A stretch of 46,410 bases of DNA, taken from the NCBI GenBank assembly GCA_947463445.1, contig CANHRS010000011.1:1-46410 (forward strand), in the 5' to 3' direction. This document shows, one piece after another, positions 3,199-20,536 of the stretch. How positions within the stretch are numbered: position 1 is the stretch's first letter; every line of letters starts with the position of its first letter. Both the position numbers and the translations under genes were made by a program. The stretch comes from Flavobacteriia bacterium. GTDB lineage: Bacteria > Bacteroidota > Bacteroidia > Flavobacteriales_D > Crocinitomicaceae. A model generated the notes under the pieces. The model searched no databases and was not told where the DNA came from. It was given only the letters and a program-made list of their open reading frames with translations.

Positions 3199-3213
3199 AA
3201 GTGACTCATATCA

Positions 3214-3453: not shown

Positions 3454-3459
3454 TTTTAC

Positions 3460-3467: not shown

Positions 3468-3483
3468 CTTCAAGGATATAAAA

Positions 3484-4209: not shown

Positions 4210-5195
4210 GGTTACATGAAAATCGCACCCTCTTTAGGCAATCCATTGAGTTTGCTGCTCAAAAACTGAATATGCTTCCAATATACATTGAAAAAGATTA
4301 TTGGATAACATTTGCATTACACACTATTTTTCACAATAAAATTGGTAATGAAGTTGTTTTCAAAGGTGGAACAGCATTATCGAAATGTTTCGGTATCATA
4401 GAACGTTTTTCGGAAGACATAGATTTAGTGGTGTTACAAAATGAGTCTGATTCTGGTAGTAAACTAAAGAGTAAGTTAAAAAAGATTACAGAAGTTGTTT
4501 CTCAACAGTTAAAAGAAATTGAAATAAATAAAATCACCACCAAATTAGGGATGATTCGCAAAATTGCATATCAATATCCGAAAATAACCACAGGTGTTTT
4601 TGGTCAAGTGAGAGATGTAATTATTGTAGAAGCAACCTGGTTAGGTAGATACGAACCCTATCACAAGCAACAAATTTCATCTTACATCTTTGAAATGATG
4701 CAAGGAGCAAATCAAATTGATTTAGCTAAAGAATATGGAATGCTTCCGTTTGAAGTTCAAGTATTACATGTAAACAGAACAATTTGCGAGAAAATAATGA
4801 GTCTTGTCCGATTTTCATATGGAGAACATCCATTAGAAGATCTTCACAATAAAATTCGTCATACATACGACCTTCACCAACTATTAAAAGAAACCGAAGT
4901 GAAGAATTTTTTCAATTCTACGGAATTTAATAAAATGTTATTGTTAGTCGCGCAAGATGATGTAGCAAGTTTCAAAACGAATAATAGTTGGTTAGAAAAA
5001 CACCCTAAAGATGCACTTATATTTAACGATACTGAAAATGTATGGGAAGAATTGAAGGAGACTTACAACAATGAGTTTAGTAATTTAGTTTATGGTAAAT
5101 TGCCAAAAAATGAAGCTGTTCTCGAAACATTAAAAATGATTCAAGAACGATTGAAAGCAATTTCTTGGACAATAAAAATTGAAACCAAAGAATGA
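4194..5195 (+). CDS. AbiEii/AbiGii-type nucleotidyltransferase toxin
   Basis: The 333-residue protein carries the nucleotidyltransferase motifs of AbiEii: FKGGTALSK (motif I), ERFSEDIDLVV (DxD metal site), VEATWLG, and a C-terminal RTICEKIMSLVRFSYGEH ... DLHNKIRHTYDLHQL segment of the K/R-D type. AbiEii toxins stop growth by modifying cellular RNA; related MenT/AbiE enzymes add nucleotides to tRNA. The ORF could start at 4194 or at a second Met four codons later (4206); the overlap with abiEi suits either. Its stop overlaps hsdR by 4 bp (ATGA at 5192), so toxin and restriction subunit are probably co-transcribed. Confidence 0.88.
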   Translation: MEHCMRLHENRTLFRQSIEFAAQKLNMLPIYIEKDYWITFALHTIFHNKIGNEVVFKGGTALSKCFGIIERFSEDIDLVVLQNESDSGSKLKSKLKKITEVVSQQLKEIEINKITTKLGMIRKIAYQYPKITTGVFGQVRDVIIVEATWLGRYEPYHKQQISSYIFEMMQGANQIDLAKEYGMLPFEVQVLHVNRTICEKIMSLVRFSYGEHPLEDLHNKIRHTYDLHQLLKETEVKNFFNSTEFNKMLLLVAQDDVASFKTNNSWLEKHPKDALIFNDTENVWEELKETYNNEFSNLVYGKLPKNEAVLETLKMIQERLKAISWTIKIETKE

Positions 5196-8100
5196 AATTT
5201 ACAGAAGAAAAATTAGAAAAAGCATTCATTGAATTAGTTGCGAAAGAAGGCTTTAATCATCATTTTGGGGTAGCCATTACAAGGTCTCCAGAGGAAGTAT
5301 TGATAGAAGAAGATTTACAAAACTTTTTATTGAAGCAATATCAATTTGAGGGTATTACACTAAATGAATGTAAGTCAATCATTCTGCAATTAAAATCCCT
5401 TTCATCATCTGATTTATATGAAAGTAATAAAACGTTCATGAGCATGCTTTCGGACGGTTTTATTCTAAAAAGAGAAGACCGTTCTCAAAAAGATATTTAC
5501 ATACAACTAATTGATTATTCAGGATTAGGAAACCATAAACAACCAGAAGAAAACCAATTACAAAAAGTTTTTGCTGATCCAGAGGTTCCTTATGGAAAAG
5601 ATAATAATATTTATAAGTTTGTTAATCAACTTGAAATTCAAGGTACAGAAAAACGCATACCAGACGGTATCATTTACATCAATGGCTTACCACTAGTAGT
5701 TTTTGAATTTAAAAGTGCAATTCGAGAAGAAGCCACAATTCATGATGCTTATATACAACTAACAACAAGATATAGAAGAGATATACCCGAACTTTTCAAA
5801 TACAATGCATTATGCGTGATAAGTGATGGGGTAAACAACAAAGCAGGTTCATTTTTCGCTCCCTATGATTTTTTCTATGCTTGGCGCAGAGTAGCAGGAT
5901 TAGCAAAAGAGGTAGATGGAATTGATTCTATGTTCACCTTAGTGGAAGGATTGTTAAATAAAAACCGATTGCGAGACATTATTCGCAATTTTATTTACAT
6001 TCCAGATAGTTCTAAAAAGAATGAAAAAATCGTTTGTCGTTACCCACAATATTATGCCGCAAAAGCCTTGTTTGAAAATATAAAACAAGTACAAAAGCCA
6101 AAAGGTGATGGTAAAGGAGGTACATATTTTGGTGCTACGGGCTGTGGAAAAAGTTATACAATGCTTTACTTGACTCGTTTGTTAATGAGAAGTGAGCATT
6201 TTCGAAGTCCAACAATTGTATTAATTACCGACAGGACAGATTTAGACGATCAACTTTCAGGTCAATTCACAAATGCTAAAAATTTCATTGGAGACAATAC
6301 GGTAATAAGTGTTGAAAGTAGAGCGAATCTGAGAGAGTTGATACAAGGTCGTCAAAGTGGAGGTGTATTTTTAACAACGATTCACAAATTTACCGAGGAC
6401 ACAAGATTATTATCTGATAGGTCTAATGTGATATGTATTTCAGACGAAGCACATCGTAGTCAAACCAATTTAGATCAAAAACTAAGAATTACCGAAAAGG
6501 GAGTAACAAAAACCTATGGTTTTGCGAAGTATTTGCATGATTCCTTACCAAACGCAACATTTGTTGGTTTTACAGGTACTCCGATTGATGCTACTTTAGA
6601 TGTATTTGGAAAAGTGGTAGATGCATATACAATGACAGAATCTGTAAACGATGAAATTACGGTTAGAATTGTTTATGAAGGTAGAGCAGCGAAAGTGGCT
6701 TTGAAAAATAGTGAATTAGAAAAAATAGAGAAATATTACGAGGAATCCGCAAAGCTTGGAACGAATGATTATCAGATTGATAAAAGCAAACAAGAAACGG
6801 CGAGTATGTACTCCATATTGGGTGATCCAAAACGTCTAAAAACAGTAGCAGAAGATTTTATCTTACATTACGAGCAAAGAATTGAGGAAGGTGCTACCGT
6901 AAAAGGGAAAGCGTTGTTTGTAAGCAGTAGTCGAGAAATTGCCTATGCGTTATATAAAAATATTATCGAGTTACGTCCTGAATGGGCTGAAATCAGAGAA
7001 GCCGAGGAAGGTGTTGAACTTTCGGAGAAGGACAAGCGAGAGTTGAAACCAATCCAGCGTGTGAAGATGGTGATGACAAGAGGAAAAGACGACCCTAAAG
7101 AACTTTGGGATACGTTGGGTACCTCTGAGGATAGAAAAGAACTCGATAGACAATTCAAAAATCCAAAATCCAACTTTAAAATAGCCATCGTGGTTGATAT
7201 GTGGTTGACAGGGTTCGATGTTCCATTTTTGGATAGTATTTATATCGATAAACCTATTCAACAACACAATTTAATCCAAACAATTTCAAGGGTTAACAGA
7301 AAGTTTGAAGGTAAAAACAAAGGATTAGTTATCGATTATATTGGTATAAAAAAACAAATGAATTTAGCTCTTGCTAAATACAACAAAGGAGACGAAGATA
7401 ATTTTGAGGACATTGATCAATCATTAGTAGTTGTAAAAGATCAACTAGATTTAATTTCAAAATTGATGCACACATTTGATACTTCAAAATATTTTAAAGG
7501 GAGTCCAATCGAGCAATTAAACACATTAAATCAAGGAGCAGAATTTGTTCAAAAAACAAAAGATATAGAAACTCGATTTATGGGCTTGGTGAAGCGCTTG
7601 AAAGCAGCCTATGATATTTGTGCAGGAAGTGAAAAATTAACGCAGAAAGAAAGAGATTACACCCATTTCTATTTGGCTATCCGTTCCATCATATTTAAAC
7701 TGACAAAAGGAAACGCACCAGATACAGCACAAATGAACGCAAGGGTTCGAGAAATGATAAAAGAAGCCTTAGAAAGTGATGGTGTAGAGGAAATTTTCAA
7801 GTTAGGCAACGAAGAAGAAACAGAACAAGACATTTTTGAAAAAGACTATATTGATAAAATCAATAAGATAAAGTTACCGAATACAAAAATCAAGTTACTC
7901 CAACAATTATTGGCCAAAGTAATTGGTGAAATCAAAAAGGTGAATAAAACAAAAGGAATTGATTTCACAAAGAAAATGCAAGCATTGGTAAATCGTTACA
8001 ATGAACGCGATGAAAATGATGTATTCCGAAGTGAAGTGTATGAAGAGATGGCAAATGCGTTAACCGATATGATTTGGGAAGTACACAAAGAATTTTCAGC

Positions 8101-8407
8101 AGGAGACGAATTAGGTATTGGCTTTGAAGAGAAAGCGTTTTACGATATTTTAAAAGAATTATGCATTAAATATGATTTCAACTATCCTGACGATAAAATG
8201 ATTGAACTAGCCAAATCAGTCAAAGAATTAGTTGAAAGTCAAGCAAAATTTCCCGATTGGAACAAACGAGATGATATTAAATCAGCATTAAAAGTTGGAT
8301 TAATTCTTTTATTGGATGAATTTGGTTATCCACCAGTTGAACGTGATGAAGTTTACCTTGAGATATTTGACCAAGCAGAGAATTTTAAGAAGAATCAAGC
8401 AAACTAG
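5192..8407 (+). CDS. hsdR: Type I restriction endonuclease subunit R
   Basis: The 1071-residue protein has the full HsdR layout. A PD-(D/E)xK nuclease lies near residues 155-175 (RIPDGIIYINGLP then VVFEFKSA). A SF2 translocase follows, with Walker A (GATGCGKSYTM), DEAH box (ISDEAHRSQ), motif III (FVGFTGTP) and the later motif QTISRVNRKF. A long helical C-terminal region probably binds the methylase core. HsdR cleaves unmodified DNA after ATP-driven translocation, together with HsdM and HsdS. Neither partner is in this window, so they are either upstream or lost. Length is normal and no interruption is seen. Translation is coupled to the AbiEii gene by an ATGA overlap. Confidence 0.95.
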   Translation: MKFTEEKLEKAFIELVAKEGFNHHFGVAITRSPEEVLIEEDLQNFLLKQYQFEGITLNECKSIILQLKSLSSSDLYESNKTFMSMLSDGFILKREDRSQKDIYIQLIDYSGLGNHKQPEENQLQKVFADPEVPYGKDNNIYKFVNQLEIQGTEKRIPDGIIYINGLPLVVFEFKSAIREEATIHDAYIQLTTRYRRDIPELFKYNALCVISDGVNNKAGSFFAPYDFFYAWRRVAGLAKEVDGIDSMFTLVEGLLNKNRLRDIIRNFIYIPDSSKKNEKIVCRYPQYYAAKALFENIKQVQKPKGDGKGGTYFGATGCGKSYTMLYLTRLLMRSEHFRSPTIVLITDRTDLDDQLSGQFTNAKNFIGDNTVISVESRANLRELIQGRQSGGVFLTTIHKFTEDTRLLSDRSNVICISDEAHRSQTNLDQKLRITEKGVTKTYGFAKYLHDSLPNATFVGFTGTPIDATLDVFGKVVDAYTMTESVNDEITVRIVYEGRAAKVALKNSELEKIEKYYEESAKLGTNDYQIDKSKQETASMYSILGDPKRLKTVAEDFILHYEQRIEEGATVKGKALFVSSSREIAYALYKNIIELRPEWAEIREAEEGVELSEKDKRELKPIQRVKMVMTRGKDDPKELWDTLGTSEDRKELDRQFKNPKSNFKIAIVVDMWLTGFDVPFLDSIYIDKPIQQHNLIQTISRVNRKFEGKNKGLVIDYIGIKKQMNLALAKYNKGDEDNFEDIDQSLVVVKDQLDLISKLMHTFDTSKYFKGSPIEQLNTLNQGAEFVQKTKDIETRFMGLVKRLKAAYDICAGSEKLTQKERDYTHFYLAIRSIIFKLTKGNAPDTAQMNARVREMIKEALESDGVEEIFKLGNEEETEQDIFEKDYIDKINKIKLPNTKIKLLQQLLAKVIGEIKKVNKTKGIDFTKKMQALVNRYNERDENDVFRSEVYEEMANALTDMIWEVHKEFSAGDELGIGFEEKAFYDILKELCIKYDFNYPDDKMIELAKSVKELVESQAKFPDWNKRDDIKSALKVGLILLLDEFGYPPVERDEVYLEIFDQAENFKKNQAN

Positions 8408-8900: not shown

Positions 8901-9485
8901 TTATTTCTTTAAAATAATCTCATAATACAAGTGCTTATTAGAAACCGGAGAAGTCTCAGGAAAAGGAACGACGTACACTTTCATTGTTCGTCCTAGGAAA
9001 TTTGTTTCACCTAAATAGTCGTATGCGATCTCATCATCTTCATTTTTTCTAGACTTCCACATTTCCTTTAAGGTTTCGTCCATTTTTAAAAATTCATCGG
9101 TAACACGTTTTCCCATTAACACAATCTTATCTGGGTCAGCATTTTTCAAGCGGTCTTTCAAACTTTCCAAATGCGATGATTCTACCTTCACAGAATTCGA
9201 ATTTTTACTTGTTATAGCGTTATCATCAATCATATCTGTAAACCCCAAACCATCCGGGTATGCAGATAAGTTTCCGGAAATAAAAACTTCACTGGCCATG
9301 TGTTCGAATGGATAGGTGTTTTCTATACGCTTACATTCACTTATTAACCCAGCATCCTTAAGTATTTTCCAAAAATGAACGCGCGTACAAAAAACGGAAC
9401 CGATATTTACCGCTTCTTCAGTTGCATTTAATCCTATAAAAACAATTCCGTTTTTACCTGCTAAAAATTTTGTGTGTATTGACAT
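8901..9485 (-). CDS. Uracil-DNA glycosylase superfamily-like protein (Mug/TDG type)
   Basis: The 194-residue protein resembles single-domain Mug/TDG glycosylases. Near the N-terminus IVFIGLNATEEA takes the place of the active-site GxNPG loop and is followed by an FWKILKDAGLI helix, as in Mug. In the middle there is a TDMI motif, and DKIVLMGKRV matches the family strand before the substrate-binding helix. Near the end VPFPETSPVSNKHL replaces the usual L-P-(N/S)-(P/T)-S-G loop. Family role: removal of uracil or mismatched thymine from DNA. The divergent loops leave room for another activity. It is the last gene of the accessory minus-strand block and has its own terminator. Confidence 0.6.
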   Translation of the reverse strand: MSIHTKFLAGKNGIVFIGLNATEEAVNIGSVFCTRVHFWKILKDAGLISECKRIENTYPFEHMASEVFISGNLSAYPDGLGFTDMIDDNAITSKNSNSVKVESSHLESLKDRLKNADPDKIVLMGKRVTDEFLKMDETLKEMWKSRKNEDDEIAYDYLGETNFLGRTMKVYVVPFPETSPVSNKHLYYEIILKK

Positions 9486-9544
9486 AATAGTATAGATTTT
9501 AAATTAATTAATGAAAAAATATTTGATAATAAACGAGTTAAATA

Positions 9545-9997
9545 TTATTCAAAAGTACCTAACTCTTTTAAATAATTCCTTAGTAAAATCGTGAGATAAT
9601 TTAATACAAAATCACATTCAAGGATTGGTTCTTGGTAATTGAATAGTACTTCATCTACTATTTCGTAGTCATCTAATTCTGTTAAATTAGAGGAAGGATT
9701 AAAGATGTTGTAAATGTGTTTTTCAAGTAGGAATCGTCGTGTGTAATTTAGTTTCAGTGCAAGTTGATTATCGACTACTTCAAAATATAAATTAATAATG
9801 AATGGTTTATGAATTGATTTTGAGATTTTAAAAACATAGCAATCGACTTTTCTGTCAAATTTTACATGTAATTGATCTTTTTCAATTTCTTTTCTCCAGG
9901 AGGAGATCCATAAAAACAATTGATGATTCCATTCAGAGACTAAAAAAAATCCATTTTCAGCATGTAATTTTTCTACATTTTTTTTCCAACTTTCCAT
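9545..9997 (-). CDS. Unknown small protein, paralogue of the gene at 10834
   Basis: The 150-residue protein has no signal peptide or membrane segment. It opens with MESWKKN and has Trp-rich early segments (SEWNHQLFLWISSW) and a helical end, CDFVLNYLTILLRNYL. The protein at 10834-11253 shares this outline: MENWKRN start, EFVLSYLNILFINYY end, similar length. I do not recognise the family. Two diverged paralogues separated by one secreted protein is an arrangement seen with immunity proteins, but nothing here proves that role. Confidence 0.6.
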   Translation of the reverse strand: MESWKKNVEKLHAENGFFLVSEWNHQLFLWISSWRKEIEKDQLHVKFDRKVDCYVFKISKSIHKPFIINLYFEVVDNQLALKLNYTRRFLLEKHIYNIFNPSSNLTELDDYEIVDEVLFNYQEPILECDFVLNYLTILLRNYLKELGTFE

Positions 9998-10094
9998 ATT
10001 CTTTTAGATTAAGTGTTACATATATATAAGGAATGATTTATTTCAAATGTGACATTATCACTCAAAATAAATTTTAATTAAAATTAAAACAGTA

Positions 10095-10811
10095 TTATAG
10101 ATAGTAATAATTGTGTCGGAATCTCTTTTTTACCAAAATAACAACATTAATACTTTGACTATTTTTATGGGTAAAGACACAAATTTGAAGATTTCTCAAA
10201 CGCTTACTTCCTAGATCTTTTTTTAGTTTTTTGTTTTCAGAAATACCAACAACTATGTTTTTTAAAATCAGATCATCACATATATAGTTTAAGTGTCGCA
10301 TCATCAAACTTTTTTTGGAATAGTATACATATGCCTTAGCGAAGTCTTCAAGAAATTCATCTTGCCACAAAGTATCCAATTTTAAATGATTATTGAACTT
10401 TACATTGTTTATTAAATACAACGTATCGAGTAACGCAAAATTCATTGGGATAAAAGTTCCTAGTGTATCTATGGCGGAAACATTAACTCCCCAAGATTTA
10501 AAAAAATCGAAGTCAACTTTGGTTGGATTGATCTTATAATCAATGTGATCTTCGGAAGTGTATTTTAAATTACCATTTTCATCATATGCAGTTTCATCGT
10601 AATAGTAAAAATGATATGGGTTTTGTTCCAGTTCTAACGCTCTTTCTTTTTCTGCTTTTGCGATAGAGTCTTGCATCCTTTTTTCTTTGAAAATTTGGAG
10701 GATAGCCTTTATTTTTTTTGTGTCTCGAATACTAACTGATTCTAACTTATCGGTTTGTCCAAGTAAACAAAAACTTGTAAAAAGTAAAAATGTCATCGTT
10801 AAAAGTTTCAT
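10095..10811 (-). CDS. Secreted or periplasmic protein of unknown function
   Basis: The 238-residue protein begins with a signal peptide (MKLLTMTFLLFTSFCLLGQ; cleavage probably after Gly/Gln) followed by a charged helix (KIKAILQIFKEKRMQDS). The rest is mixed and Tyr/Lys-rich; the end (NVVILVKKRFRHNYYYL) is basic and may form a last strand. No known domain or catalytic motif is visible. It lies between two paralogous small genes (9545 and 10834) in the same orientation, 22 bases after the stop of the upstream one, so the three are probably transcribed together. Confidence 0.65.
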   Translation of the reverse strand: MKLLTMTFLLFTSFCLLGQTDKLESVSIRDTKKIKAILQIFKEKRMQDSIAKAEKERALELEQNPYHFYYYDETAYDENGNLKYTSEDHIDYKINPTKVDFDFFKSWGVNVSAIDTLGTFIPMNFALLDTLYLINNVKFNNHLKLDTLWQDEFLEDFAKAYVYYSKKSLMMRHLNYICDDLILKNIVVGISENKKLKKDLGSKRLRNLQICVFTHKNSQSINVVILVKKRFRHNYYYL

Positions 10812-10833
10812 AGTATTTAGTTTTAAAGGTGAA

Positions 10834-11253
10834 TTATAAATGATTGTATTTTGTATAATAATTTATAAATAAGATGTTTAGGTAGGATAGTACAAATTCT
10901 TTTTCATGTATTGGGTCTGTTTTTCTGGATATTTCTTCAATGGTATTTGTATATGTTTCAGTTTGATGATCGTAATGTAGCGTATATTCTATCCATAAAA
11001 TTTGATCATAAAGAGCCGTTTGTTCATCAAACTTTAAAAAATAGTACAAACTAATTGTCTGTTCGATATCATTTGAAAGTGAGATTTCGATATCCTTTCC
11101 ATTATTTTTTACTTGAATATTACCAAGCTTAATTTGTCCCATAAACTCCCCCCATTCTTCGACCCATTCTTCTAGTAGTTTATTCCATCCTATGTAGAGG
11201 ATTAACTCTTCTTTATGTAGGAATTCCAAAATGTTTCTTTTCCAATTTTCCAT
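10834..11253 (-). CDS. Unknown small protein, paralogue of the gene at 9545
   Basis: The start is chosen at 11253 (MENWKRN), not at the ATG 16 codons earlier (11301), because MENWKRN aligns with MESWKKN of the paralogue and the longer form overlaps the upstream gene. This gives 139 residues without a signal or membrane segment. The protein is acidic, with Trp pairs (GWNKLLEEWVEEWGEF) and a helical tail (KEFVLSYLNILFINYY). Function unknown; see the paralogue for the comparison. Confidence 0.6.
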   Translation of the reverse strand: MENWKRNILEFLHKEELILYIGWNKLLEEWVEEWGEFMGQIKLGNIQVKNNGKDIEISLSNDIEQTISLYYFLKFDEQTALYDQILWIEYTLHYDHQTETYTNTIEEISRKTDPIHEKEFVLSYLNILFINYYTKYNHL

Positions 11254-11290
11254 GGTTATTTTTTTTAAATAATTAGTGAAAAATGGTGAT

Positions 11291-11653
11291 TCAATCGGCA
11301 TAAGCCAATTGAATCTGAAGTTTAGATATGAGGTAAGTAGAAAGTATATCTTTTAAGTAGTTGATCCCTTTAAGACGAAGCGTTTCCCTTAAATTTTCAT
11401 CGGATCGGATTAATGAAATTGTTGTAGGTTTTTGAAGGTAAGAAGGAAGTGTTGAAATAATTAGTGTACCAGAAGATTTAGGTATCTTTTTTAATAATTG
11501 ATTAAAAGACTCTCTTATGTGATTTTCATTTTCAATGAATGCATAATCAAAACCAGACTTTTTTTGAGGATTTGGATTTGTTTTAATGCGATTTTTGGTA
11601 ATTGAAAAAGTTAAATTGTTTGCGGAATTAATTTGAATAGTTTTCATAATCAT
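11291..11653 (-). CDS. Hypothetical protein, 118-120 residues
   Basis: No family is recognised. The second Met (11647) gives MKTIQINSANNLTFSI, a more natural start than MIMKTI. The protein lacks a signal peptide and contains strand-like SSGTLIISTLP and a helical end (GINYLKDILSTYLISKLQIQ). It sits upstream of the paralogue at 10834 in the same orientation. Composition supports coding, but conservation cannot be tested here. Confidence 0.5.
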   Translation of the reverse strand: MIMKTIQINSANNLTFSITKNRIKTNPNPQKKSGFDYAFIENENHIRESFNQLLKKIPKSSGTLIISTLPSYLQKPTTISLIRSDENLRETLRLKGINYLKDILSTYLISKLQIQLAYAD

Positions 11654-11841
11654 AAAAGTTTTAAGTAAATATTAGTTGTATATTTATTTAAGCTGTGTGA
11701 CTATGATTATGTGACAATAAATTTTAATGAATTTTAATAAAAATTTATAATAACCTCAAATACAGTATTTTATTTTTTAAATTTTATCTCAAATGAAATT
11801 TAAATGAACTCAATTCTCAATGCAAGTAGAAGTAGTACGTA

Positions 11842-12486
11842 TCAATAAAACATTTCTCGACGGTAAATAAACTCGCTTCGAGCTCCTAATGGAAAATCTT
11901 CTTTATCTTCATTAAAATAGAGATACCTTCTTGTATAAATTTTTGTGATGTTTAGTTCTTTTCGATATTCAGCTATTTGTTTTTTTATCTCTTTATTTTC
12001 TTTGCCTCCTAAGGCAATAGAGTGATTTCTACCCTTTATTTTATCTTTTCCAGACACAACTACATACATCTTTTTAATGTAAAACACATCTAATACTTCA
12101 AATAAATCCATAGCGTATTTGGGTATACGACTTTCAGTTGCAATATAATCTTGGTCATCTTCCATATACTCTTTTGGTCCATTTTTCATATTTGGATCAA
12201 TATACCAGTCTGCGTCGAACAAGGTGGTGTCTATGCGCCAATAATCATATTTAATTAGATTCTCATTCCGATAGGTATCTTTGTAAATCTCGAGACAAAA
12301 CGGGTAGAATAATGTGATTTTTTTTCCGTGATTATTTGCGAAGACGCAATTATGTAGACTTTTATCGGGTCGTAAACCAAATTTAAAAATTGTATCTCTA
12401 TTCTCCCGTAATGTTACATGCCAAACAAACATCTGAGGGATGATTTTTTTGATACCAGGTACATCTGCTAAATTTTTATAAATCAT
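11842..12486 (-). CDS. Possible ADP-ribosyltransferase-fold protein
   Basis: The 214-residue cytoplasmic protein has at residues 20-50 the pattern VWHVTLRENRDTIFKFGLRP...VFA. This resembles the H-x-T...N...I...GL.P opening of small ADP-ribosyltransferase-fold proteins (Tpt1/KptA, DarT and related toxins). A WRIDTTLFDADWYID strand pair and IATESRIPKYAMDLFEVL, like the ART segment before the last strand, follow. A clear catalytic Glu motif is not obvious, so activity is uncertain. If real, it could modify nucleic acid or protein with NAD+. No adjacent antitoxin such as a macrodomain (DarG) is visible. Confidence 0.4.
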   Translation of the reverse strand: MIYKNLADVPGIKKIIPQMFVWHVTLRENRDTIFKFGLRPDKSLHNCVFANNHGKKITLFYPFCLEIYKDTYRNENLIKYDYWRIDTTLFDADWYIDPNMKNGPKEYMEDDQDYIATESRIPKYAMDLFEVLDVFYIKKMYVVVSGKDKIKGRNHSIALGGKENKEIKKQIAEYRKELNITKIYTRRYLYFNEDKEDFPLGARSEFIYRREMFY

Positions 12487-12587
12487 AGTTATAAATTTTA
12501 ATTATTAAACATTAAGAAACCACTACTAAGGAACTAGATCACTATTTCATTCAATTCATTGATTATACTATTATTAAACACTTAGAT

Positions 12588-13139
12588 TTACTTGTTTATT
12601 TGCACTCCAAAGTCTATGTTTATAGCATAATCCACATATTCTTCGTATGCTATTTCTTTTTTTACTATAGATACGCCTATAATATTTGAAGCTTCATTAA
12701 GCTCCTCACATAACATAATCGCTTTGTGTTTTGGAGACGAATCAAATGCTTTAATTGCAATTTTAACAATCTCTGAAATTGAAGTATTTTTACTAGTTAG
12801 ATTACCTTGTATTTGTATTTCTCCCCATATATTTTTATTGGGCAACATTGAAATTCTTTGTTCAAAATTCATTTCTTTATGATCATTAACATCAAATTGT
12901 TCATCATGTGGTAATTTATCATTATGAGCTGAATGATTAACCTTAGTACATTTTGCCAAATAGTTAGCATGGTATAAAGCTACTTTTGATATTTCTGCAT
13001 CATAGATTACAGGACCTAAACCATGTTTTTTACGGTAAATATTAAGTTGTTTTACAAATTCGGTTTCTAGAGCAGACTGAGCATTAGACTTTTCTACAAA
13101 TAGAAATAGGATACAAATCATATAAAATAATTTTTTCAT
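12588..13139 (-). CDS. Secreted CAP-domain protein (SCP/PR-1 family)
   Basis: The 183-residue protein has a signal peptide (MKKLFYMICILFLFVEKSNA, cut before QSALE). A CAP domain follows: LNIYRKKHGLGPVIYDAEIS then VALYHANYLAK, the HS of NHSAHND, the WGEI motif (residues ~104-108), a DSSPKHKAIML loop and IIGVSIV. The His and Glu residues that line the CAP cavity can be seen (NHSAHND, WGEIQ). CAP proteins are extracellular and bind lipids, or in some cases act as proteases. The role here is unknown. The gene stands alone, with about 100 bases on each side. Confidence 0.8.
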   Translation of the reverse strand: MKKLFYMICILFLFVEKSNAQSALETEFVKQLNIYRKKHGLGPVIYDAEISKVALYHANYLAKCTKVNHSAHNDKLPHDEQFDVNDHKEMNFEQRISMLPNKNIWGEIQIQGNLTSKNTSISEIVKIAIKAFDSSPKHKAIMLCEELNEASNIIGVSIVKKEIAYEEYVDYAINIDFGVQINK

Positions 13140-13235
13140 AATAATTTGATTTTAAATGATTAATGATTTTATTAATTCTCATTTGACCAATATTTTGTGA
13201 AAATTTCATTAGTATATTTTGAAGAAAACAAAATT

Positions 13236-13718
13236 TCATATAGAAAAACATTTTTCTAAAATTTCCATCGTTTTGTTTTCAATACCAGGGTATTTTGACT
13301 CTCTATTTCCAGCCACATTTAAAATTATTTTTCTAGATTTTTTGTTAAAAATTTCTTGCACAAAATTCACTATTTTTTCGGAAGCATCTAAATCGTTAAT
13401 ATCCACTAATACATACTCTTTCTCGAATTTTTCACAGATTTTTTTAGTTAAATCAGAACCTCTAGATTTTACCCCAGTTAGTATAACAGTAGCATCCGTT
13501 TTACGTACATTTTGTTCCGTTCTATCTTTATAATCAGATTTAGTAGACTCATACATACTATATCTAACTTTAAGACTAAGATCTATTCCGTCTTCAGTTT
13601 TACACCCTTTAGGTAAACAACCACCAGTAGCGATTCCTGCTTTTTTTGCTGCTTTTAGAGCACCTAGATCTACACCAGTTTGACCGCCTGATACAATTTT
13701 TAATGTTAAATTTTTCAT
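13236..13718 (-). CDS. SLOG-superfamily, putative molybdenum-carrier-like protein
   Basis: The 160-residue protein matches the MoCo_carrier (pfam12694) type of the SLOG fold. KIVSGGQTGVDLGAL is the N-terminal nucleotide-binding loop, followed by GIATGGCLPKGCKTEDG, YKDRTEQNVRKTDATVI and SRGSDLT. It lacks a signal peptide. The family is annotated as a molybdenum-cofactor carrier, but many members sit in accessory or phage regions, and SLOG proteins often sense or process nucleotides. No molybdenum gene is nearby, so a nucleotide-linked role is at least as likely. Confidence 0.8.
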   Translation of the reverse strand: MKNLTLKIVSGGQTGVDLGALKAAKKAGIATGGCLPKGCKTEDGIDLSLKVRYSMYESTKSDYKDRTEQNVRKTDATVILTGVKSRGSDLTKKICEKFEKEYVLVDINDLDASEKIVNFVQEIFNKKSRKIILNVAGNRESKYPGIENKTMEILEKCFSI

Positions 13719-14039
13719 AAATAATGTTTAAGAGTTTATATTTCCTTATCATTATTTATAAGTGTAGTTTCATTAAAATTGTGTCAAAAAAAAGTGTAAA
13801 TTAATTTATATTTTGAAAATAAATTGTTAACTATCATTTTTTGAGTTAGTTAACTTGTTTATTTTTTATCTGAATATTTGTTAAAACATCAATAGTTAAT
13901 GTTTCATTATTGTGTTTCATTGATTTCAAAGGAAAATATTCACTTGAAAAATTAATACTATTCAATTAATAAAATGCGAGTAATAATATATGCGTGATAT
14001 ATTATTATAATTTAAAAGATTAAATTCTTAGTCAAATAA
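13719..14039. other. AT-rich intergenic region, no gene seen
   Basis: This 321-base stretch carries stops in all frames. It contains an AT-only inverted repeat, TAATAATATAT (13981-13991) and ATATATTATTA (13997-14007), with the loop GCGTG; its role is unknown. Nothing else is supported. Confidence 0.5.
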
Positions 14040-14070
14040 AAAACGCTCCTACAATAAGTAAGAGCGTTTT
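14040..14070 (-). terminator. Terminator of the metalloprotease-like gene
   Basis: Arms AAAACGCTC (14040-14048) and GAGCGTTTT (14062-14070) form a 9-bp stem. On the minus strand it follows the stop at 14099 and continues into TTTATTT. Confidence 0.8.
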
Positions 14071-14098
14071 AATAGACGATTTATTTATTTTCAATTTT

Positions 14099-16714
14099 TC
14101 ATCTGATTCCGAAACCTAAATTCCATAGATCAGCGGACAAGTCTATAGCATCTCTTTCTATATCTGGATATGCATAAGTTAGTGGTGCTTGAGATTTGAA
14201 ATTTGTGATTATTTCAGATGGAGTTATTTCAAGTTTTGATATGCTATCCCCTTTATAAATCCAAATTGCATATTTAGGATTTTCTCCTTCTTCTGGATTT
14301 GGATTTGGCACCATGAGTTTATATAAAGTAATTTCACCAGTTTTTTCGTCAACGTATTTTTCAAAAGCACTAAAAAAACCTAGGTTTTTCATAGTGTCTT
14401 TATATTTTTCTACTTGCATTTCATTAAATTCATCTGATGGCAAAAAAACAGCAGGTGTGAGTGTTTTTCTAAATAATTCCATACGATTAGGTCCTACATT
14501 TTTATATTCCCAAGTAAATATTAGAGCTGCGTTATTCTGCGTTATTTTTTCGAGATTTTTTAAATCACTTAAACATTCTTTTAATGATTCTAAATCTTCC
14601 TTTTTTACTCCTTCTTTTAACTCTTTTTTTATTTCATCTTGTATCAGTTGAATAGTCTCTGGGTCTAATGTACAATCAGATATAGCTTCAAGCGAGTCAT
14701 TAAAAATCAGACAAGTTTTTAAGTGCATTAGCATAGGATTATCTATGTAATTTAAAGAGGAATCCGCTAAATAATGATATTGAGCTGAATCATTTAAATA
14801 ATGATGTTTTCTTAAATCTACAATCTTGTTTAATATTTCAGAAATATCTTGTGATATTAAATTTTGATATAATCGATACGGACTATCTTTCTTTGTAGGG
14901 TTCATTAATTCAAATGCTTTCTCCAAATCTTCATCGCCTTTTATCATCCAATATGCAATAATTTGAGCAATTGCTTCTTGTGTTTTTTTATGACCCGTAT
15001 TGTAACCGATTCTCCAATTGGCATTATTAGCAATAGGCCAATGAGAAACCCAATGTCCTAATTCGTGCATCAATACAATTAATCGCACATCTTTTTCATC
15101 GATGTTATCATGGTTTTTAACATATGCTTCAATAACATCTTTATACAATATAATTTTACCTTCATTTGTTACATTAAGACAACCTAATTTAGTTTTTGTA
15201 GATCTATAAACACCTAATCTATTTATGTTAAAAGATTCAGAGTTTACATAATTATCCAAATCAAGCAAATCTTTTTTCTCAACATCTGTTAAAGTTTCGT
15301 GATTTGCTATTTTATCTTTAATATTTTTGGGAAGGTCTGTTTTTATGAAATTTTCATATCGGAATATACCTTCTTCTTTATCAGAATTTTTCGTATGTAA
15401 TTCGTTAATTAATGATTCATTTAACTCTTCCAATTTGTTTTTAAAATAAACTTTTGGGAAACGATCGATTTCAAACTTGAAATTTGGTTTTTTAGTATCA
15501 TTTTTATCTTCATTTTGAAGTATCTTTTTTAATTCAAGTATTTTCTCCAACTCTTCAGGTGAAAACTGATATGCTACTAATTTATTTGAGTTAGTTTTTG
15601 TATACATATTAGCTAAAAGAAAATCTAAAGCTTCAATACCTTCTGTATTGTCTGTGTCTAGGGTAATAAAATGAAGTCCTTCCTTTATACCAGGAACACT
15701 TAGAAGTTTTTCCCGTAATCGAGATAATAATTTTCGACCATTAACTTCTTTATTACCAAGTTCAACCCATCGTTTTTGAACAAGTGCTAAAAATGATTTT
15801 TTTTTATCGATAGACTCATTGGATTCATCTTCGAAATAGGAACAATTAATTAATAATTCAAAATATTTTTTTTCTTGTGGTGATAATCTGATTGAAGAAG
15901 AAGAATATACTTTTCGGGCAAAATCTCTAATTTTTTCTACGTGGTCTTTCGTGTCAAAGTCTTCATACATTTCATCCGATAATTCAGGAAGACCATTCAA
16001 GTTTTCTATATTCGTGAATGCAGATTTTTGTGTACTGTCATACGCTTCCTTTGCTATACCATCTAAAAGAGAATTCCATTTTTGTTGTGCTTTTATAATA
16101 TTTGCATCTTCTTTAAATTCATCTTCCAGGACATTAATTGACCAAAGATTCTTCATCATTCGAATAAAATATCCTGGTCTTATGTTATTTATGGATTGTT
16201 TCGGAATCCGAGTATATCCCTCCACTAATCGATCATAGGCTGCATTTTCATCTTGATTTATTAATAATCTAAAATAATTTTCATATATTCTTATTATTGA
16301 ATTTCGTTCTTTTTTTGTCCAATGAGGAAATGTTTTTTCTAAAAATTCGTCGGATAATGTTAAATAACTTCTGATATCATTAGAATTATAAAAAAGATGA
16401 TTTAATTGATTTTGTATATTTTTTAAGGTATTTCTTTTGTATTTAATTATTTCAGGCTCAACTATTACTGCTTTTTTATCCGTGTCATCTTCTTTAATCT
16501 TCTTTTTAGGAACGTATTTTTTAATTACTTCTATATTAATTATTGCATATCTTGCTTTTTCAATAATTTCTTCATTGGTGATATCCGGATAATATTCTTT
16601 GCATTTTTCGTTGAACCAGTTAGCTAATTTTTTAGCGGATTCCTTTTTTTTATCGGATATTTTCCCTTTTTCAATTGTTAAATTTTCGAATATTCTTGTT
16701 AAATCGTTTAACAT
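14099..16714 (-). CDS. Large cytoplasmic protein with zincin metalloprotease motif
   Basis: The 871-residue protein has no signal peptide. Most of it is Lys/Glu-rich and helical, with no recognised domain. Near residue 550 there is a clear zincin motif, VLMHELGHWVSH (H550, E551, H554), preceded by a strand/helix unit (GKIILYKDVIEAY). E580 in TQEAIAQIIAYW, 26 residues after the second His, is a plausible third zinc ligand of gluzincin type. Inferred: a zinc peptidase domain buried in a large scaffold. It is the last gene of a cluster with an AAA+ ATPase, a membrane protein and a coiled-coil protein (64-base gap to the last). A TAGGTTTG -7 box at 16741-16748 may give it its own promoter. A terminator follows. 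Confidence 0.65.
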   Translation of the reverse strand: MLNDLTRIFENLTIEKGKISDKKKESAKKLANWFNEKCKEYYPDITNEEIIEKARYAIINIEVIKKYVPKKKIKEDDTDKKAVIVEPEIIKYKRNTLKNIQNQLNHLFYNSNDIRSYLTLSDEFLEKTFPHWTKKERNSIIRIYENYFRLLINQDENAAYDRLVEGYTRIPKQSINNIRPGYFIRMMKNLWSINVLEDEFKEDANIIKAQQKWNSLLDGIAKEAYDSTQKSAFTNIENLNGLPELSDEMYEDFDTKDHVEKIRDFARKVYSSSSIRLSPQEKKYFELLINCSYFEDESNESIDKKKSFLALVQKRWVELGNKEVNGRKLLSRLREKLLSVPGIKEGLHFITLDTDNTEGIEALDFLLANMYTKTNSNKLVAYQFSPEELEKILELKKILQNEDKNDTKKPNFKFEIDRFPKVYFKNKLEELNESLINELHTKNSDKEEGIFRYENFIKTDLPKNIKDKIANHETLTDVEKKDLLDLDNYVNSESFNINRLGVYRSTKTKLGCLNVTNEGKIILYKDVIEAYVKNHDNIDEKDVRLIVLMHELGHWVSHWPIANNANWRIGYNTGHKKTQEAIAQIIAYWMIKGDEDLEKAFELMNPTKKDSPYRLYQNLISQDISEILNKIVDLRKHHYLNDSAQYHYLADSSLNYIDNPMLMHLKTCLIFNDSLEAISDCTLDPETIQLIQDEIKKELKEGVKKEDLESLKECLSDLKNLEKITQNNAALIFTWEYKNVGPNRMELFRKTLTPAVFLPSDEFNEMQVEKYKDTMKNLGFFSAFEKYVDEKTGEITLYKLMVPNPNPEEGENPKYAIWIYKGDSISKLEITPSEIITNFKSQAPLTYAYPDIERDAIDLSADLWNLGFGIR

Positions 16715-16740
16715 ATTTAAAATTTTTAATTTTTATATTT

Positions 16741-16748
16741 CAAACCTA
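16741..16748 (-). promoter_or_regulatory. Possible -7 element upstream of the metalloprotease-like gene
   Basis: On the minus strand TAGGTTTG fits TAnnTTTG. It lies 26 bases before the ATG at 16714. No convincing -33 element is seen. Confidence 0.35.
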
Positions 16749-16778
16749 AATATTATATTCCGATATAAAAAATGAAAA

Positions 16779-17060
16779 TCATCTAAACCAGTTAATTAGT
16801 ATTTCAATCTCTATTTTATCTTCTTCAAAATCCTCATTTAGAAGACGTTTAATAGCATTGTACTTGATTTCAATCTGCTTTAATTGGTCATATAATTCTT
16901 TTGTTTTTACAGTATGCGCAGTAAGTAAATCATATCTCTGGTCCTTAATTAAAGTCTTGACTTTTTCAGTTTCTTCTTGTAACAAAATAAAAGCTGACTG
17001 TAGGTTTTTTAGACCATTCATTATTTCTTGTAATTCATTTTTTAAAAATTCGTTTGTCAT
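16779..17060 (-). CDS. Small coiled-coil protein in the AAA+/zincin cluster
   Basis: The start is set at 17060 (MTNEFLKNEL), because its ATG overlaps the TGA of the upstream gene by 4 bases (17057-17060), a translational-coupling arrangement. The longer frame up to 17180 lies inside that gene. The 93-residue product is almost all heptad-like helix (NLQSAFILLQEETEKVKTL, ELYDQLKQIEIKYNAI), typical of a coiled-coil adaptor or structural subunit. It ends with an acidic stretch and ILINWFR. No family is recognised. Confidence 0.6.
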   Translation of the reverse strand: MTNEFLKNELQEIMNGLKNLQSAFILLQEETEKVKTLIKDQRYDLLTAHTVKTKELYDQLKQIEIKYNAIKRLLNEDFEEDKIEIEILINWFR

Positions 17061-17554
17061 CGTAAATAAAAGTTTAGTAAATAAAATAGTCCATAAAACA
17101 AAGCACTTAATCCGAGAGAACAAAGTAAAAATGGGTAAATGTTTTTTAGATAATACCAAAAAGGTGTAATTCGATACCAATCTAAAGAATCATAGAAGAT
17201 AGAATCTCTATCCTCATTTATCACACGATTTGGACCCCATTCTTTTTCATCCATCGGATTACATTCGATATCTTCTTCTAAAATATCTTCTTGAATCAGG
17301 CATCGATCTATCACTAATTTTCGTGTTTGAACAATATAATAAACATCCATTATATACAAATTTGCAAGTATTGGTAGTATGAAATAGGTTCCTATATTGA
17401 CTTCGATGAAGAAAACTACAAAAAATAGAAATAATTGAAAATAAAAAGGAACTCCGTTTGGTAATGGAATCTTTCCAAATACTTTCCCAAATCGTTTGTG
17501 AGATTCCAATTTTCGTAAATAATAAACTGATTTGTCTAATTCATTTTCTGTCAT
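17057..17554 (-). CDS. Membrane protein in the AAA+/zincin cluster
   Basis: The 165-residue protein has a soluble N-terminus of about 35 residues, two adjacent membrane helices (around FYFQLFLFFVVFFIEVNI and TYFILPILANLYIMDVYYI), an acidic soluble loop of about 60 residues (ILEEDIECNPMDEKEWG), and one or two helices at the C-terminus (FLLCSLGLSALFYGLFYLL). No known family is seen. The gene lies 29 bases after the AAA+ ATPase and overlaps the coiled-coil gene by 4 bases, so the three are surely one operon; it may anchor the complex at the inner membrane. Confidence 0.65.
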   Translation of the reverse strand: MTENELDKSVYYLRKLESHKRFGKVFGKIPLPNGVPFYFQLFLFFVVFFIEVNIGTYFILPILANLYIMDVYYIVQTRKLVIDRCLIQEDILEEDIECNPMDEKEWGPNRVINEDRDSIFYDSLDWYRITPFWYYLKNIYPFLLCSLGLSALFYGLFYLLNFYLR

Positions 17555-17583
17555 AAGAGTTGAGTTTTTGATAATTATTATTC

Positions 17584-19005
17584 CTAACAGCGAAATCCAA
17601 TTTTCCCATTGGATTTTAATAAACCATCTTCTTGCAATATCGTTTCAATTTCATTTTGATTTAGTTCGCCTAATTCGCTTAATAATTCCATTTTAAGTTC
17701 GCAGTTTATTAATTGTGCAGGAGTCCAGTCGGATTGAATAATTTGTTTTGAAAATGCTTTTGAAATTCGTTGATTGATTGGGGAAGCATGCATTAATAGT
17801 TCTCTTACTTCTACAGATGGAAAATCAATTTTTGATTTAAATAAAAATCTTCGTTCGAATGCTTTATCCATATTTTTCTCCATATTGGTTGTCGCAATTA
17901 ATATCCCTTTGAAGTTTTCTAATAATTCTAAAATCTGCGCTTGTAGTTGATTTGAGAAGATGTCATTACTTTGGTTAACAGCAACGCGTTTATTCATTAA
18001 ACCATCCGCTTCATTCAAAAGAAGTATTACAGGACGGTCTGTTTCTCGTGCTATAGTATGATATGCTTTAAAAAGTTGTTTCATGTTTTTTTCTGATTCA
18101 CCAATCCATTTTGAAACGATTTTAGTATAATCTGCATGCATTAAAATTGCATTTGTGTTTTTTGTCAATTGATATACAAATTCTGTTTTCCCAGTGCCCG
18201 AAGGACCAAATAATAAAGTAGTCAATGAATGTTGCAAGTGTTTTTTAGCGTGTATGACTCCTTCTAGCGAATCGAAAAGTTTTCTGTTTGAAGCATTGTA
18301 ATGTAAAGTGATTGGTTTGATGTCGTTTGAATCGATTAAAGAATAAAAATCATACTGTTTTGTTTTTATTTCTTCTAAAATTGGTACATCCACTCCGTTC
18401 ATCAACATGACACATCTTTTAGTCGGAGCAATTCTAGCACAAATTCCATTCTCAATTTTTACGTTTAACAATTCTTGCTCCATGTTTTTCCCTTCTTGGT
18501 CTATAAATAATTGTGTTATTTGATAATGTTCAGTAGGGGATAATTTAATTTCACTTAAGAAAACAGGATGATCATTTTCTAAAAAATGACTAACAACATA
18601 AAGTAAAATTTTTATTTCTAGATCATTTATTTTGTTGCTAATTATAAAGTCTAAAAATGTGTTTTGAAAGTTTTTTCCAAAAAATGCATGCTTAAAATCG
18701 AGAAATTTTTTCGCAGTTGTGTTTGCTAAAAAGAAACTGAAAAGTAGATAACCTTCCTTATAAAAGAGGTTTAATTCACTTTCCTCAACATTGGAGGATT
18801 GATTTAATTCAACCGATAAGGAGGAACTATTTCTCCCAATTTTGAGTTTTATTTTACCCGATTTTAAATTTGAAAACAAACATTTTAGATTGGTTAAAGA
18901 ATGACCATTAAAGAAGTTTTCGTTTAAACAAATGGTTTCTTGGTTTGCAAGTTTTTGAATCGCTAACTTTAAACTTGACACACTATTTTTTCGGATACTA
19001 TTCAT
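17584..19005 (-). CDS. AAA+ ATPase with unknown N-terminal domain
   Basis: The 473-residue protein has about 250 residues of unrecognised N-terminal sequence and then a classic AAA module: Walker A GPSGTGKT (267-274), pore-loop-like SKWIGESEKN, Walker B LLLNEAD (328-334), sensor-1 ATTN (371-374) and arginine-finger segment FERRF. The Walker B aspartate is Asn331 while catalytic Glu332 is kept, a variant known in some bacterial AAA proteins. Such enzymes remodel or unfold protein complexes. It heads the cluster with the membrane protein (29-base gap), the coiled-coil protein and the zincin-motif protein. A FtsH-like split remodeller/protease is one guess. Confidence 0.8.
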   Translation of the reverse strand: MNSIRKNSVSSLKLAIQKLANQETICLNENFFNGHSLTNLKCLFSNLKSGKIKLKIGRNSSSLSVELNQSSNVEESELNLFYKEGYLLFSFFLANTTAKKFLDFKHAFFGKNFQNTFLDFIISNKINDLEIKILLYVVSHFLENDHPVFLSEIKLSPTEHYQITQLFIDQEGKNMEQELLNVKIENGICARIAPTKRCVMLMNGVDVPILEEIKTKQYDFYSLIDSNDIKPITLHYNASNRKLFDSLEGVIHAKKHLQHSLTTLLFGPSGTGKTEFVYQLTKNTNAILMHADYTKIVSKWIGESEKNMKQLFKAYHTIARETDRPVILLLNEADGLMNKRVAVNQSNDIFSNQLQAQILELLENFKGILIATTNMEKNMDKAFERRFLFKSKIDFPSVEVRELLMHASPINQRISKAFSKQIIQSDWTPAQLINCELKMELLSELGELNQNEIETILQEDGLLKSNGKIGFRC

Positions 19006-19160
19006 AGAGTCGGATTTATATATTATTAATAATGAGTAAATTACTAATGATTTTGTATTCTTTTAAAACCGTTAGAATCGGTTTAATCTATTATTTTAGA
19101 TAGATCAGGAAATAGAATACGATTTTTGAACTTAAATAAGTCTAATATATATTTGCACTA

Positions 19161-19628
19161 TTAATCTATACTATATATTCCATACGGATTACTAATACCT
19201 TTAAAACTTAAATTACCTCGTTCATCAACGCTAAAAGTAATTTGCCAAGGGATTAATGCATCCCCAGTTTCGGGATCTGTAGTTTGATATTGAAATCCAA
19301 GAACGTCTTTATCGTCAAGTATGTTTTTTAAACCGTGCTCTAAAATATAAACAGCAAATTCATATTCCTCAAAAGAAGATCCTTTAGAAATGGAATCAAA
19401 TTTTACTTTATCTAATGTAGTTTTACACTTTGTCTTTAAAGTGTCTATTTCAACACTAAGAGTAACGATGGAATCATTTTTTATTTCTTGACTTAATCCA
19501 GTGAATGAAATACTCGAAGAAAGGATGAATAAAACTAACATATACTTGAATTTGTTAGACTGATTGTTTTTGACATTAAAATCTAATGGGACTTTTGTTG
19601 ACATTATCAACTTACTTTTACTTTTCAT
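19161..19628 (-). CDS. Secreted protein of unknown function
   Basis: The 155-residue frame has a hydrophobic segment at about residues 29-46 (YMLVLFILSSSISFTGLSQ), preceded by a long Lys/Asn-rich stretch. The true start may be at the internal Met before LVLFILSS, which would leave a standard signal peptide ending at Ser-Gln. The mature part ends with a compact region, WQITFSVDERGNLSFKGISN, similar in style to TonB-C-like or other small periplasmic domains, but no family is assigned. It lies 155 bases upstream of the AAA+ gene in the same orientation. Confidence 0.5.
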   Translation of the reverse strand: MKSKSKLIMSTKVPLDFNVKNNQSNKFKYMLVLFILSSSISFTGLSQEIKNDSIVTLSVEIDTLKTKCKTTLDKVKFDSISKGSSFEEYEFAVYILEHGLKNILDDKDVLGFQYQTTDPETGDALIPWQITFSVDERGNLSFKGISNPYGIYSID

Positions 19629-20080
19629 AATCTTTTATTTTAAGAGTGAATATTCGCTTCTTAAATAGATAACTAACAAAAGATAATTTTTGTGACAGAA
19701 TTTTTAATGTTTTTAAAAACTATTTTAATAACGTGTAATTCTTTAATATATTGATTGTGATTTTGAATTTCAGAAAGGAGCAGAAATTAAATGGATTTCT
19801 TTAATACAGAGAGAGGGTTTAATTTTTTAAATCAGAATGTTTCAATTTTTACTTTGTTAAAATCAACTTTTAATCTTCTGCGTAACTCTGTATATAATCC
19901 CCCTTTTTTTCTCCACTAATATTTTATCCTTTTATTATTTTCTAAAATAATAGAAATTCGCCATGTTTCAAAAAATCAAAATGTTACCTATTTCGACTAT
20001 TTTTCATTTCTCATCAAAAAAATTATTTAATAGAATAAGTTTTGAGTTGTGGGCTAAATGTGGGCTAAGTTTTAAAATAA
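19629..20080. other. Intergenic region next to ssrA with short repeats
   Basis: No convincing gene; two frames of about 43 codons (from ATGs near 19790 and 19963) are too short to trust. A perfect inverted repeat TATTATTTT/AAAATAATA lies near 19934-19953. Two direct copies of TGTGGGCTAA (20048-20057 and 20059-20068) sit just before the ssrA terminator and may be recombinase or protein binding sites. Confidence 0.45.
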
Positions 20081-20119: not shown

Positions 20120-20135
20120 ATAATTTGTTTTAAAG

Positions 20136-20536
20136 TGGAGCTGGAGGGGGTTGAACCCTCGTCCAAACATAGAATTTTCAAGGCTTCTACATGTTTAGTT
20201 TTTGATTAATTTTCGATTGTACAACGGACAAAAACACCCAATATACAACTTATCTTCTGTTGTCTTATGCCTTCCACGAAGTAAGGTTGGCACCAGTCTT
20301 AAATGAATGATTCTCCCTAGTTCCATGCCTAAAAGACGGAGGCAGCGGAGGGAGAACTTGTTCCGCCTACTATGATTCAGCTGGAATTAAGCTTTATCTA
20401 TCTAATAGATTAAGCAGCAAGTGCGTATGACGTGTTGTCAATTATAGTTCGAGACAGGATATTAAAGAGCTCCACCTCAACGCTCTACATGCTTACACTT
20501 GACTATCGCTTATGCTGTCAAATCCAATACAGCCCC
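20136..20536 (-). ncRNA. ssrA: tmRNA
   Basis: On the minus strand the RNA begins GGGGCTGTATTGGATTTGAC (20536 downward), the conserved tmRNA 5' end, and closes with the T-arm GGACGAGGGTTCAACCCCC and CAGCTCCA. The 5' GGGGCUG pairs with CAGCUCC to form the acceptor stem, with one G-U pair. CCA is not encoded. The proteolysis tag can be read at 20410-20439: resume codon GAC, tag DNTSYALAA, then TAA. AATT before the resume codon keeps the A at -4. tmRNA rescues stalled ribosomes and tags the peptide for proteases. A hairpin terminator follows, and a GT4 gene diverges 110 bases upstream. Confidence 0.97.

Follow-up and report, generated by a model that had tools for sequence, protein, structure and literature searches.

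A 46,410-nt stretch of DNA from a Flavobacteriia bacterium (assembly GCA_947463445.1, contig CANHRS010000011.1; hereafter the window) carries a minus-strand gene cluster encoding an AAA+ ATPase, a membrane protein, a small helical protein and an 871-amino-acid (aa) protein with a zincin protease motif. We propose, with a probability of roughly 0.6, that the 871-aa protein is a fusion of an extracytoplasmic function (ECF)-type sigma factor and a zincin that drives a private, self-amplifying regulon through the promoter TGTCACA-N17-CTTAT, under the control of the AAA+ ATPase and the zincin. The proposal builds on computed observations: homology of the fusion protein to sigma factors, a promoter-like site, association of that site with the locus, an intact protease motif and conserved gene linkage. 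The initial annotation had read the four genes as an operon recalling FtsH-like motor/protease assemblies yet matching no known system. The operon, the co-occurrence of ATPase and zincin genes in other Bacteroidota and the lack of a described counterpart (in the libraries and papers searched) held up, whereas the FtsH analogy did not, and a sigma-factor-like domain in the first ~345 residues of the zincin protein had been overlooked. The AAA+/zincin unit looks like a regulator, with a functional locus of ~11 kb served by a common promoter.

The 871-aa protein combines a sigma-like domain and a zincin

The fusion gene (14099..16714; minus strand, as are all features of the locus given below) was divided into domains by sequence alignment and hhalign. 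By eye, the N-terminal part of the fusion family resembles sigma regions 2 and 4, and profile–profile comparison placed this likeness at residues ~121–345 (15680..16354). In a first hhalign run, nine domain sequences matched five ECF sigmas of the 2.56-Mb genome to which the window belongs (hereafter its own genome) with a probability of 62% and a score of 38.5 over 140 columns, in the correct region order; as controls, 100 column permutations reached no more than 14.0, a reversed profile scored 14.3 and none of 14 other gene families exceeded 19.7. With 12 domain sequences and 10 ECF sigmas, the probability was 92.4% and the score 53.3 (P = 5e-7, 157 columns, regions 2 and 4), compared to 16.3 for the best of 200 column permutations. 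When searched against 889 open reading frames (ORFs) from the loci together with 10 sigmas at E ≤1, the domain profile retrieved its own family and three ECF sigmas, with no others (L249, 6.8e-7; L072, 2.3e-5; L147, 0.0014). By profile comparison the domain is therefore homologous to regions 2 and 4 of ECF sigma-70 factors, in order, and on sequence grounds residues ~121–345 appear to form a divergent ECF-type sigma-70 domain preceding a zincin. No credible match emerged when the PDB was searched with profiles of the sigma/zincin alignment or of two other locus families described below (the 214-aa and IGEAPP families).

The zincin domain spans residues ~380–670 (14705..15577). Its HELGH motif, noted in the initial annotation together with a downstream glutamate, lies at residues 550–554 (15053–15067); E580, within T-x-E-x-x-A, is a candidate third zinc ligand. 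The domain thus shows the conserved HExxH and downstream third ligand of a zincin, with E580 as the candidate. The block H550, E551, G553, H554, W555, H558 and W559 is invariant in 16 of 16 aligned relatives; looser relatives outside this alignment carry HEMGH (L033) or HELSH (L246). Pfam Zincin_1 matched four of the 16 relatives at E ≤0.1, the best at 0.00056 and below its cut-off, and nothing in PADLOC or NCBIfam matched the 871-aa protein at E ≤0.1. The zincin protein was not found in the viral contigs, plasmids or phages searched.

A two-part site precedes every apparent unit of the locus

Thirteen genes make up the ~11-kb locus (8901–19628), in four apparent transcription units whose limits were drawn from intergenic gaps and, for the first unit, also from a terminator-like hairpin. 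The two-part site TGTCACA-N17-CTTAT precedes all four units, 57, 63, 68 and 69 nt upstream of their first genes. Site 1 (TGTCACA-N17-GTTAT, 19669..19697) lies 69 nt upstream of the 155-aa gene heading the AAA+ unit, site 2 (TGACACA-N17-CTTAT, 13758..13786) 68 nt upstream of the cpYpsA gene and site 3 (TGTCACA-N17-CTTAA, 11688..11716) 63 nt upstream of the 120-aa gene, each matching 11 of 12 motif positions; site 4 (TGTCACA-N17-CTTAT, 10026..10054), 57 nt upstream of a p150 gene, matches all 12. The site is thus shared by the unit of the fusion gene and its neighbouring units; an exception, discussed below, is genome G005, which has the site but no detectable sigma-like domain.

The motif was noticed from TGTCACA in upstream regions of the window. 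In the own genome the exact core occurs twice, both times inside the locus, and these 11 kb contain four of the 22 sites found when up to one mismatch is allowed (binomial P = 2e-6). All exact cores of G001 (two), G007 (two), G006 (one), G026 (one) and G005 (one) likewise lie in the corresponding locus, as does one of two in each of G111 and G162. TGTCACA alone was not enriched in the window (4 found versus 5.6 expected), enrichment being confined to the two-part form in its proper position, and neither a direct-repeat search nor a generic promoter scan (63 found versus 70.9 expected) was informative.

The promoter tracks the sigma-like domain across loci

A promoter was counted when at least 11 of 12 motif positions matched no more than 120 nt from a start. 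Loci that carry the sigma-like domain had it in 29 of 214 upstream regions and in 13 of 15 loci, compared to 0 of 456 regions in 33 loci without the domain, with G005 set aside. Among the domain loci, it was found in 12 of 51 regions within the same genus (shuffle mean 0.02), in 12 of 113 outside the genus (shuffle mean 0.02) and in 5 of 50 at loci found after the motif had been fixed (shuffle mean 0.04). Among loci without the domain, zincin loci gave 0 of 83 regions, three further zincin loci 0 of 45 and AAA loci 0 of 328; G002 and G106 have the AAA+ gene with neither domain nor promoter in the stretches examined. At L011, where the domain is 29% identical, TGTCACT stands in place of TGTCACA in all three sites, as though site and divergent domain had changed together. 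Between divergent genes at both L011 and L106, two sites are oriented towards each other.

Organization of the AAA+ unit

The first unit comprises the 155-aa, AAA+, membrane, 93-aa and fusion genes. The 155-aa gene (19161..19628), whose product has a hydrophobic N-terminal segment by eye and is conserved in G001, G006 and G007, is probably the first gene of the unit, one gene before AAA+. The four minus-strand ORFs of the initial annotation follow in the order described there, with a 29-base gap, a 4-base overlap and a 64-base gap: the 473-aa AAA+ ATPase of the classic AAA clade (17584..19005), a 165-aa membrane protein with hydrophobic stretches at residues 31–75 and 139–162 and a homologue in L244 (17057..17554), a helical protein of 93 aa when read from the ATG at 17060 (16779..17060; the mechanical ORF is longer) with a weak MobC-like match below cut-off, and the fusion protein. 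Residues ~1–250 of the ATPase are, as first described, unrecognised, with no family above the Pfam cut-off, and Pfam gave no match passing cut-off for the membrane, 93-aa and 871-aa proteins. The unit ends in a terminator-like hairpin of 13 pairs and a T tail after the fusion gene (14040..14070); six such sites were found in 11.6 kb, compared to 3.4 expected.

Distribution and linkage in relatives

Matches to the 871-aa protein were present in 5 of 13 same-genus genomes, in 16 of 200 sampled family genomes and in 15 of 399 sampled order genomes, all 15 within the same family. A pattern-based scan of 84,980 genomes yielded at least 17 zincin loci, a lower bound because later searches found more; all are in records named Bacteroidota, and metagenome-bin names ('Chitinophaga pinensis', for example) are unreliable. 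In these 17 loci the zincin stands alone in eight (L108, L112–L117 and L119), follows the conserved N-terminal part in eight (L103–L107 and L109–L111, with L107 truncated at the start) and is cut off in one (L118). A small p146-family gene directly follows the zincin in five of the 17 (L113, L114, L107, L116 and L119), and its product is a possible substrate or inhibitor.

A profile search for the sigma-like domain gave 11 matches in 240 family genomes; because the match in G072 is an ordinary ECF sigma, we count 10 of 240 as carriers. Among 395 class genomes there were five matches, of which that in G848 is doubtful: an 880-aa protein (L245) matched the end of the profile at 5.6e-6. Genome G001 contains a degraded second copy of domain residues ~276–345 (L103, 12480–13306) with an IGEAPP-family gene downstream of it; the domain is also present in intact form elsewhere.

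An AAA+ ATPase of the 470–500-aa type was found in 10 of 200 family genomes (matches below 1e-150), and in seven of these ten a gene with the N-terminal part lies close to it, in G007 across abutting contig ends. Conversely, the AAA+ gene shares the locus (in G007, the abutting contig end) in 11 of the 15 genomes with the domain (G000, G001, G006, G007, G009, G026, G111, G162, G894, G979, G1133, G1136 and the records of L109, L110 and L111). L110 belongs to a record named Sphingobacteriaceae and shows, in order, the end of an AAA+ gene, a 73-aa gene and the fusion gene. In another family, L246 brings together the sigma-like domain, an AAA+ of the same type, a zincin encoded by its own gene, a cpYpsA-like protein (by eye), a CAP protein, p150 and the promoter, a combination that favours a single old system over a local accident. 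A ~75-aa protein, similar by eye, lies near the AAA+ or fusion gene in L025 (6364–6600), L109 (5104–5328), L110 (354–575) and L246 (10385–10615).

The AAA search of viral contigs returned 22 loci at 23–36% identity. AAA relatives of ~560 aa in Bacteroidota form a separate group, of which 3 of 10 examined adjoin an ECF-like gene (L072, L077 and L080) and none of the 10 has the promoter; at these three loci the ~560-aa relative stands beside an ECF-sigma-like protein and a ~200-aa protein. Pairing of AAA+ and sigma may therefore be wider than this locus type.

Genes of the putative regulon and its surroundings

The second unit consists of the cpYpsA, CAP and 214-aa genes. The first encodes a circularly permuted YpsA (SLOG) protein (13236..13718; PF12694, 2.1e-39), the second a CAP-domain protein with a signal-peptide-like N terminus by eye (12588..13139; PF00188, 8.2e-6) and the third a 214-aa protein (11842..12486) without a library match, whose pattern resembles ADP-ribosyltransferases by eye only; library searches with its family gave no support for that assignment. 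In the third unit, a 120-aa protein conserved in the locus (11291..11653) is followed by a p150-like protein (10834..11301; 139 aa from an internal ATG that relatives use) and an ORF for a 238-aa protein with a signal-peptide-like N terminus by eye (10095..10811). The fourth unit encodes a p150-family protein that recurs among loci (9545..9997) and a uracil-DNA-glycosylase (UDG) superfamily protein (8901..9485; PF03167, 1e-6).

Genes recurring among loci are NADAR, UDG-family, cpYpsA, CAP, the 214-aa family, p150, p120, a family with the motif I-G-E-A-[AP]-P (IGEAPP, not found in viral contigs), PcfJ-like genes and small genes. NADAR (PF08719) occurs in relatives, in 8 of the 17 zincin loci. 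NADAR enzymes are described as stripping ADP-ribose from guanine bases in the parts of the reports available (PMC11125620; PMC11833690), and SLOG and NADAR domains have been tied to NAD/ADP-ribose conflicts in the portion consulted of a further study (PMC9503650). On the basis of NADAR and cpYpsA only, control of ADP-ribosylation is suggested as the function of the regulon. The putative regulon brings together proteins of the SLOG and UDG families and, in relatives, NADAR.

Beside the locus, at window positions 159–8407, lie defence-type genes: an AAA_21/Toprim-type gene, a GmrSD-type gene, a DUF6088 and AbiEii pair and a type I restriction R-subunit-like gene, with no M or S subunit among five ORFs scanned there. 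On the other side, a tmRNA gene adjoins the locus (20135–20536); tmRNA genes are frequent insertion sites for islands.

Proposed mechanism

In the proposed system, the 871-aa protein would consist of an ECF-type sigma (residues ~121–345), a zincin protease (residues ~380–670) and a variable tail. Its sigma part would direct RNA polymerase to TGTCACA-N17-CTTAT before every apparent unit. Since the promoter stands before all units, its own included, the locus would constitute a self-amplifying private regulon. Fusion of sigma and zincin, together with AAA+ and membrane genes in one operon under its own promoter, suggests a switch in which the sigma is freed by proteolysis or remodelling. Most likely, the AAA+ ATPase would hold or remodel the fusion protein while the membrane protein serves as sensor or tether, and the zincin would cut either the fusion itself or an inhibitor to release the sigma domain. 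Nucleic acids and ADP-ribose-type modifications would be the targets of the regulon products, whose most likely role is a response to stress or invaders. A fuller version, in which an AAA+-gated fusion cleaves itself on invasion or nucleic-acid damage and switches on a private ADP-ribose/base-processing regulon in Bacteroidota, is offered as a tentative speculation. As the promoter is restricted to the locus, the membership of its genes in the response is directly testable.

Opposing evidence and alternative explanations

Several observations weigh against this reading. Two AlphaFold models had low to middling confidence (mean predicted local distance difference test scores of 55 and 67), and Foldseek searches of both against the PDB gave no match at E 0.001 or better. 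Single-sequence Pfam scans did not call a sigma at cut-off in the domain members: Sigma70_r4 appeared at 0.0086 in one of nine members and Myb_DNA-bind_4 at 0.0015 in another. Across whole genomes the motif is no more frequent than a reversed control pattern (22 versus 38 one-mismatch sites in the own genome; 28 versus 30 exact cores in 32 other genomes), so that the promoter claim rests on position. Two of the 15 domain loci, L248 and L109, fall below the strict cut-off: L248 reaches 10 of 12 positions, and L109 has no site within 120 nt, with TGTCATA-N17-CTTAT 136 nt upstream by eye. Not all domain loci are independent, because three are orthologous copies in a single genus and the same genome supplied both L066 and L107. 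L034 and L011 lack a fused zincin, and in L246 it is a separate gene. In 4 of the 15 domain genomes (G009, G894 and the records of L109 and L111; loci L011, L109, L111 and L244, on contigs of limited length) no AAA+ gene lies close by. Finally, G005 carries the promoter four times, spread over two contigs and with each copy matching 11 of 12 positions, and a profile search found no sigma-like domain in it. Its gene order is AAA+, CAP-like, membrane and 93-aa genes, then genes for 91- and 289-aa proteins in place of the fusion; the 289-aa protein, which has a helix-turn-helix, aligns only weakly to sigma region 4. Either this protein stands in for the domain or the promoter is read there by another factor.

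A real regulon read by a separate, ordinary ECF sigma, with the sigma-like domain binding that sigma or RNA polymerase as a decoy, adaptor or anti-regulator, would accommodate G005, which keeps promoters without a detectable domain, as well as the strong divergence of the domain, which Pfam misses. The own genome encodes six Pfam sigma-70 region 2 proteins, and recognition of the same promoter by its ECF sigmas is conceivable in principle, which also counts against our proposal. The promoter nonetheless follows the domain in several families (13 of 15 versus 0 of 33 loci, G005 set aside), the site differs in step with the domain at L011, and an independent general sigma is disfavoured because exact cores in the own genome are confined to this locus. 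We regard this explanation as unlikely, if worth keeping in view.

An FtsH- or IetAS-like effector, in which the AAA+ ATPase unfolds host or phage proteins and feeds them to the zincin for destruction, we consider doubtful. The AAA+ gene adjoins a protease, restriction- and AbiE-type genes lie next door, and PADLOC IetA models match the AAA domain (Pfam residues 264–394, E = 9e-22) at 1.5e-20. The best IetA match, however, spans residues 253–413 only, and IetS is a serine (subtilisin-like) protease rather than a zincin; moreover, the protease is fused to the sigma-like domain and not to the AAA+, and L034, without a fused zincin, keeps the AAA+, the sigma-like domain and the promoter. A polymorphic-toxin-like protein with exchangeable C-terminal modules, suggested by relatives in G001 and G007 that are 96% and 83% identical over residues 1–744 with a differing tail and by the degraded second copy downstream in G001, is highly improbable and was dropped, as the G001 and G007 tails still align to that of the window protein (42–44%), the G001 remnant is a piece of the sigma-like domain and not a toxin cassette, the N-terminal part aligns to sigma factors and library scans list no secretion or delivery family for the N terminus.

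Comparison with known systems

FtsH likewise brings AAA+ and zincin together with a membrane segment. In the window system, in contrast, the two are on separate chains, the AAA core is closest to CDC48/Vps4-type proteins of known structure, FtsH models score ~16 bits (cut-offs 600 and 1008) and no M41 match is listed for the zincin protein in Pfam and profile searches; the system was not assigned to FtsH. IetAS resembles it in that IetA models detect its AAA domain, but the match is confined to the AAA core (NCBIfam IteA scores 72 of 510 bits), the protease is a zincin and no serine protease family was found among 10 proteins scanned with Pfam, so that IetAS was rejected as well.

Control of alternative sigma factors usually lies with separate anti-sigma proteins, and proteolysis is coupled to transcription either through anti-sigma degradation or through ImmA/IrrE repressor cleavage. 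ImmA/IrrE are cytoplasmic HExxH zincin proteases that act on transcription regulators by cutting a separate repressor. The window system shares with them a cytoplasmic zincin tied to a transcription switch, but no Pfam match to the ImmA/IrrE family is listed for its zincin and the protease is fused to the sigma-like domain. The tentative self-cleaving version, if true, would add a third route to these two couplings.

A literature search of titles and abstracts, in which subscription journals are poorly covered, found no description of a sigma-like/zincin fusion with an AAA+ ATPase. The accessible parts of two ECF reviews describe control by separate proteases and name no zincin extension (PMC8999054, PMC8103513); in the sections seen of the first, AAA ATPases are named only as ECF257 neighbours and proteases as separate enzymes (PMC8999054). 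EACC2/caspase conflict systems with a neighbouring ECF sigma gene also encode a peptidase and an ECF sigma together but, in the part of the paper available, use a caspase-type peptidase and separate genes, with neither a zincin fusion nor such an AAA+ (PMC8195603). ECF sigmas with regulatory C-terminal extensions, described in the same sections of the first review as SnoaL-like in ECF41, TPR in ECF42 and Cys-rich in CorE, share a sigma2–sigma4 core followed by an activity-controlling extension (PMC8999054). The window protein, in contrast, has a zincin as its extension and a very divergent sigma core, and is encoded together with an AAA+ ATPase. Such a sigma-like/protease fusion, linked to an AAA+ motor, would place regulator and protease on one chain.

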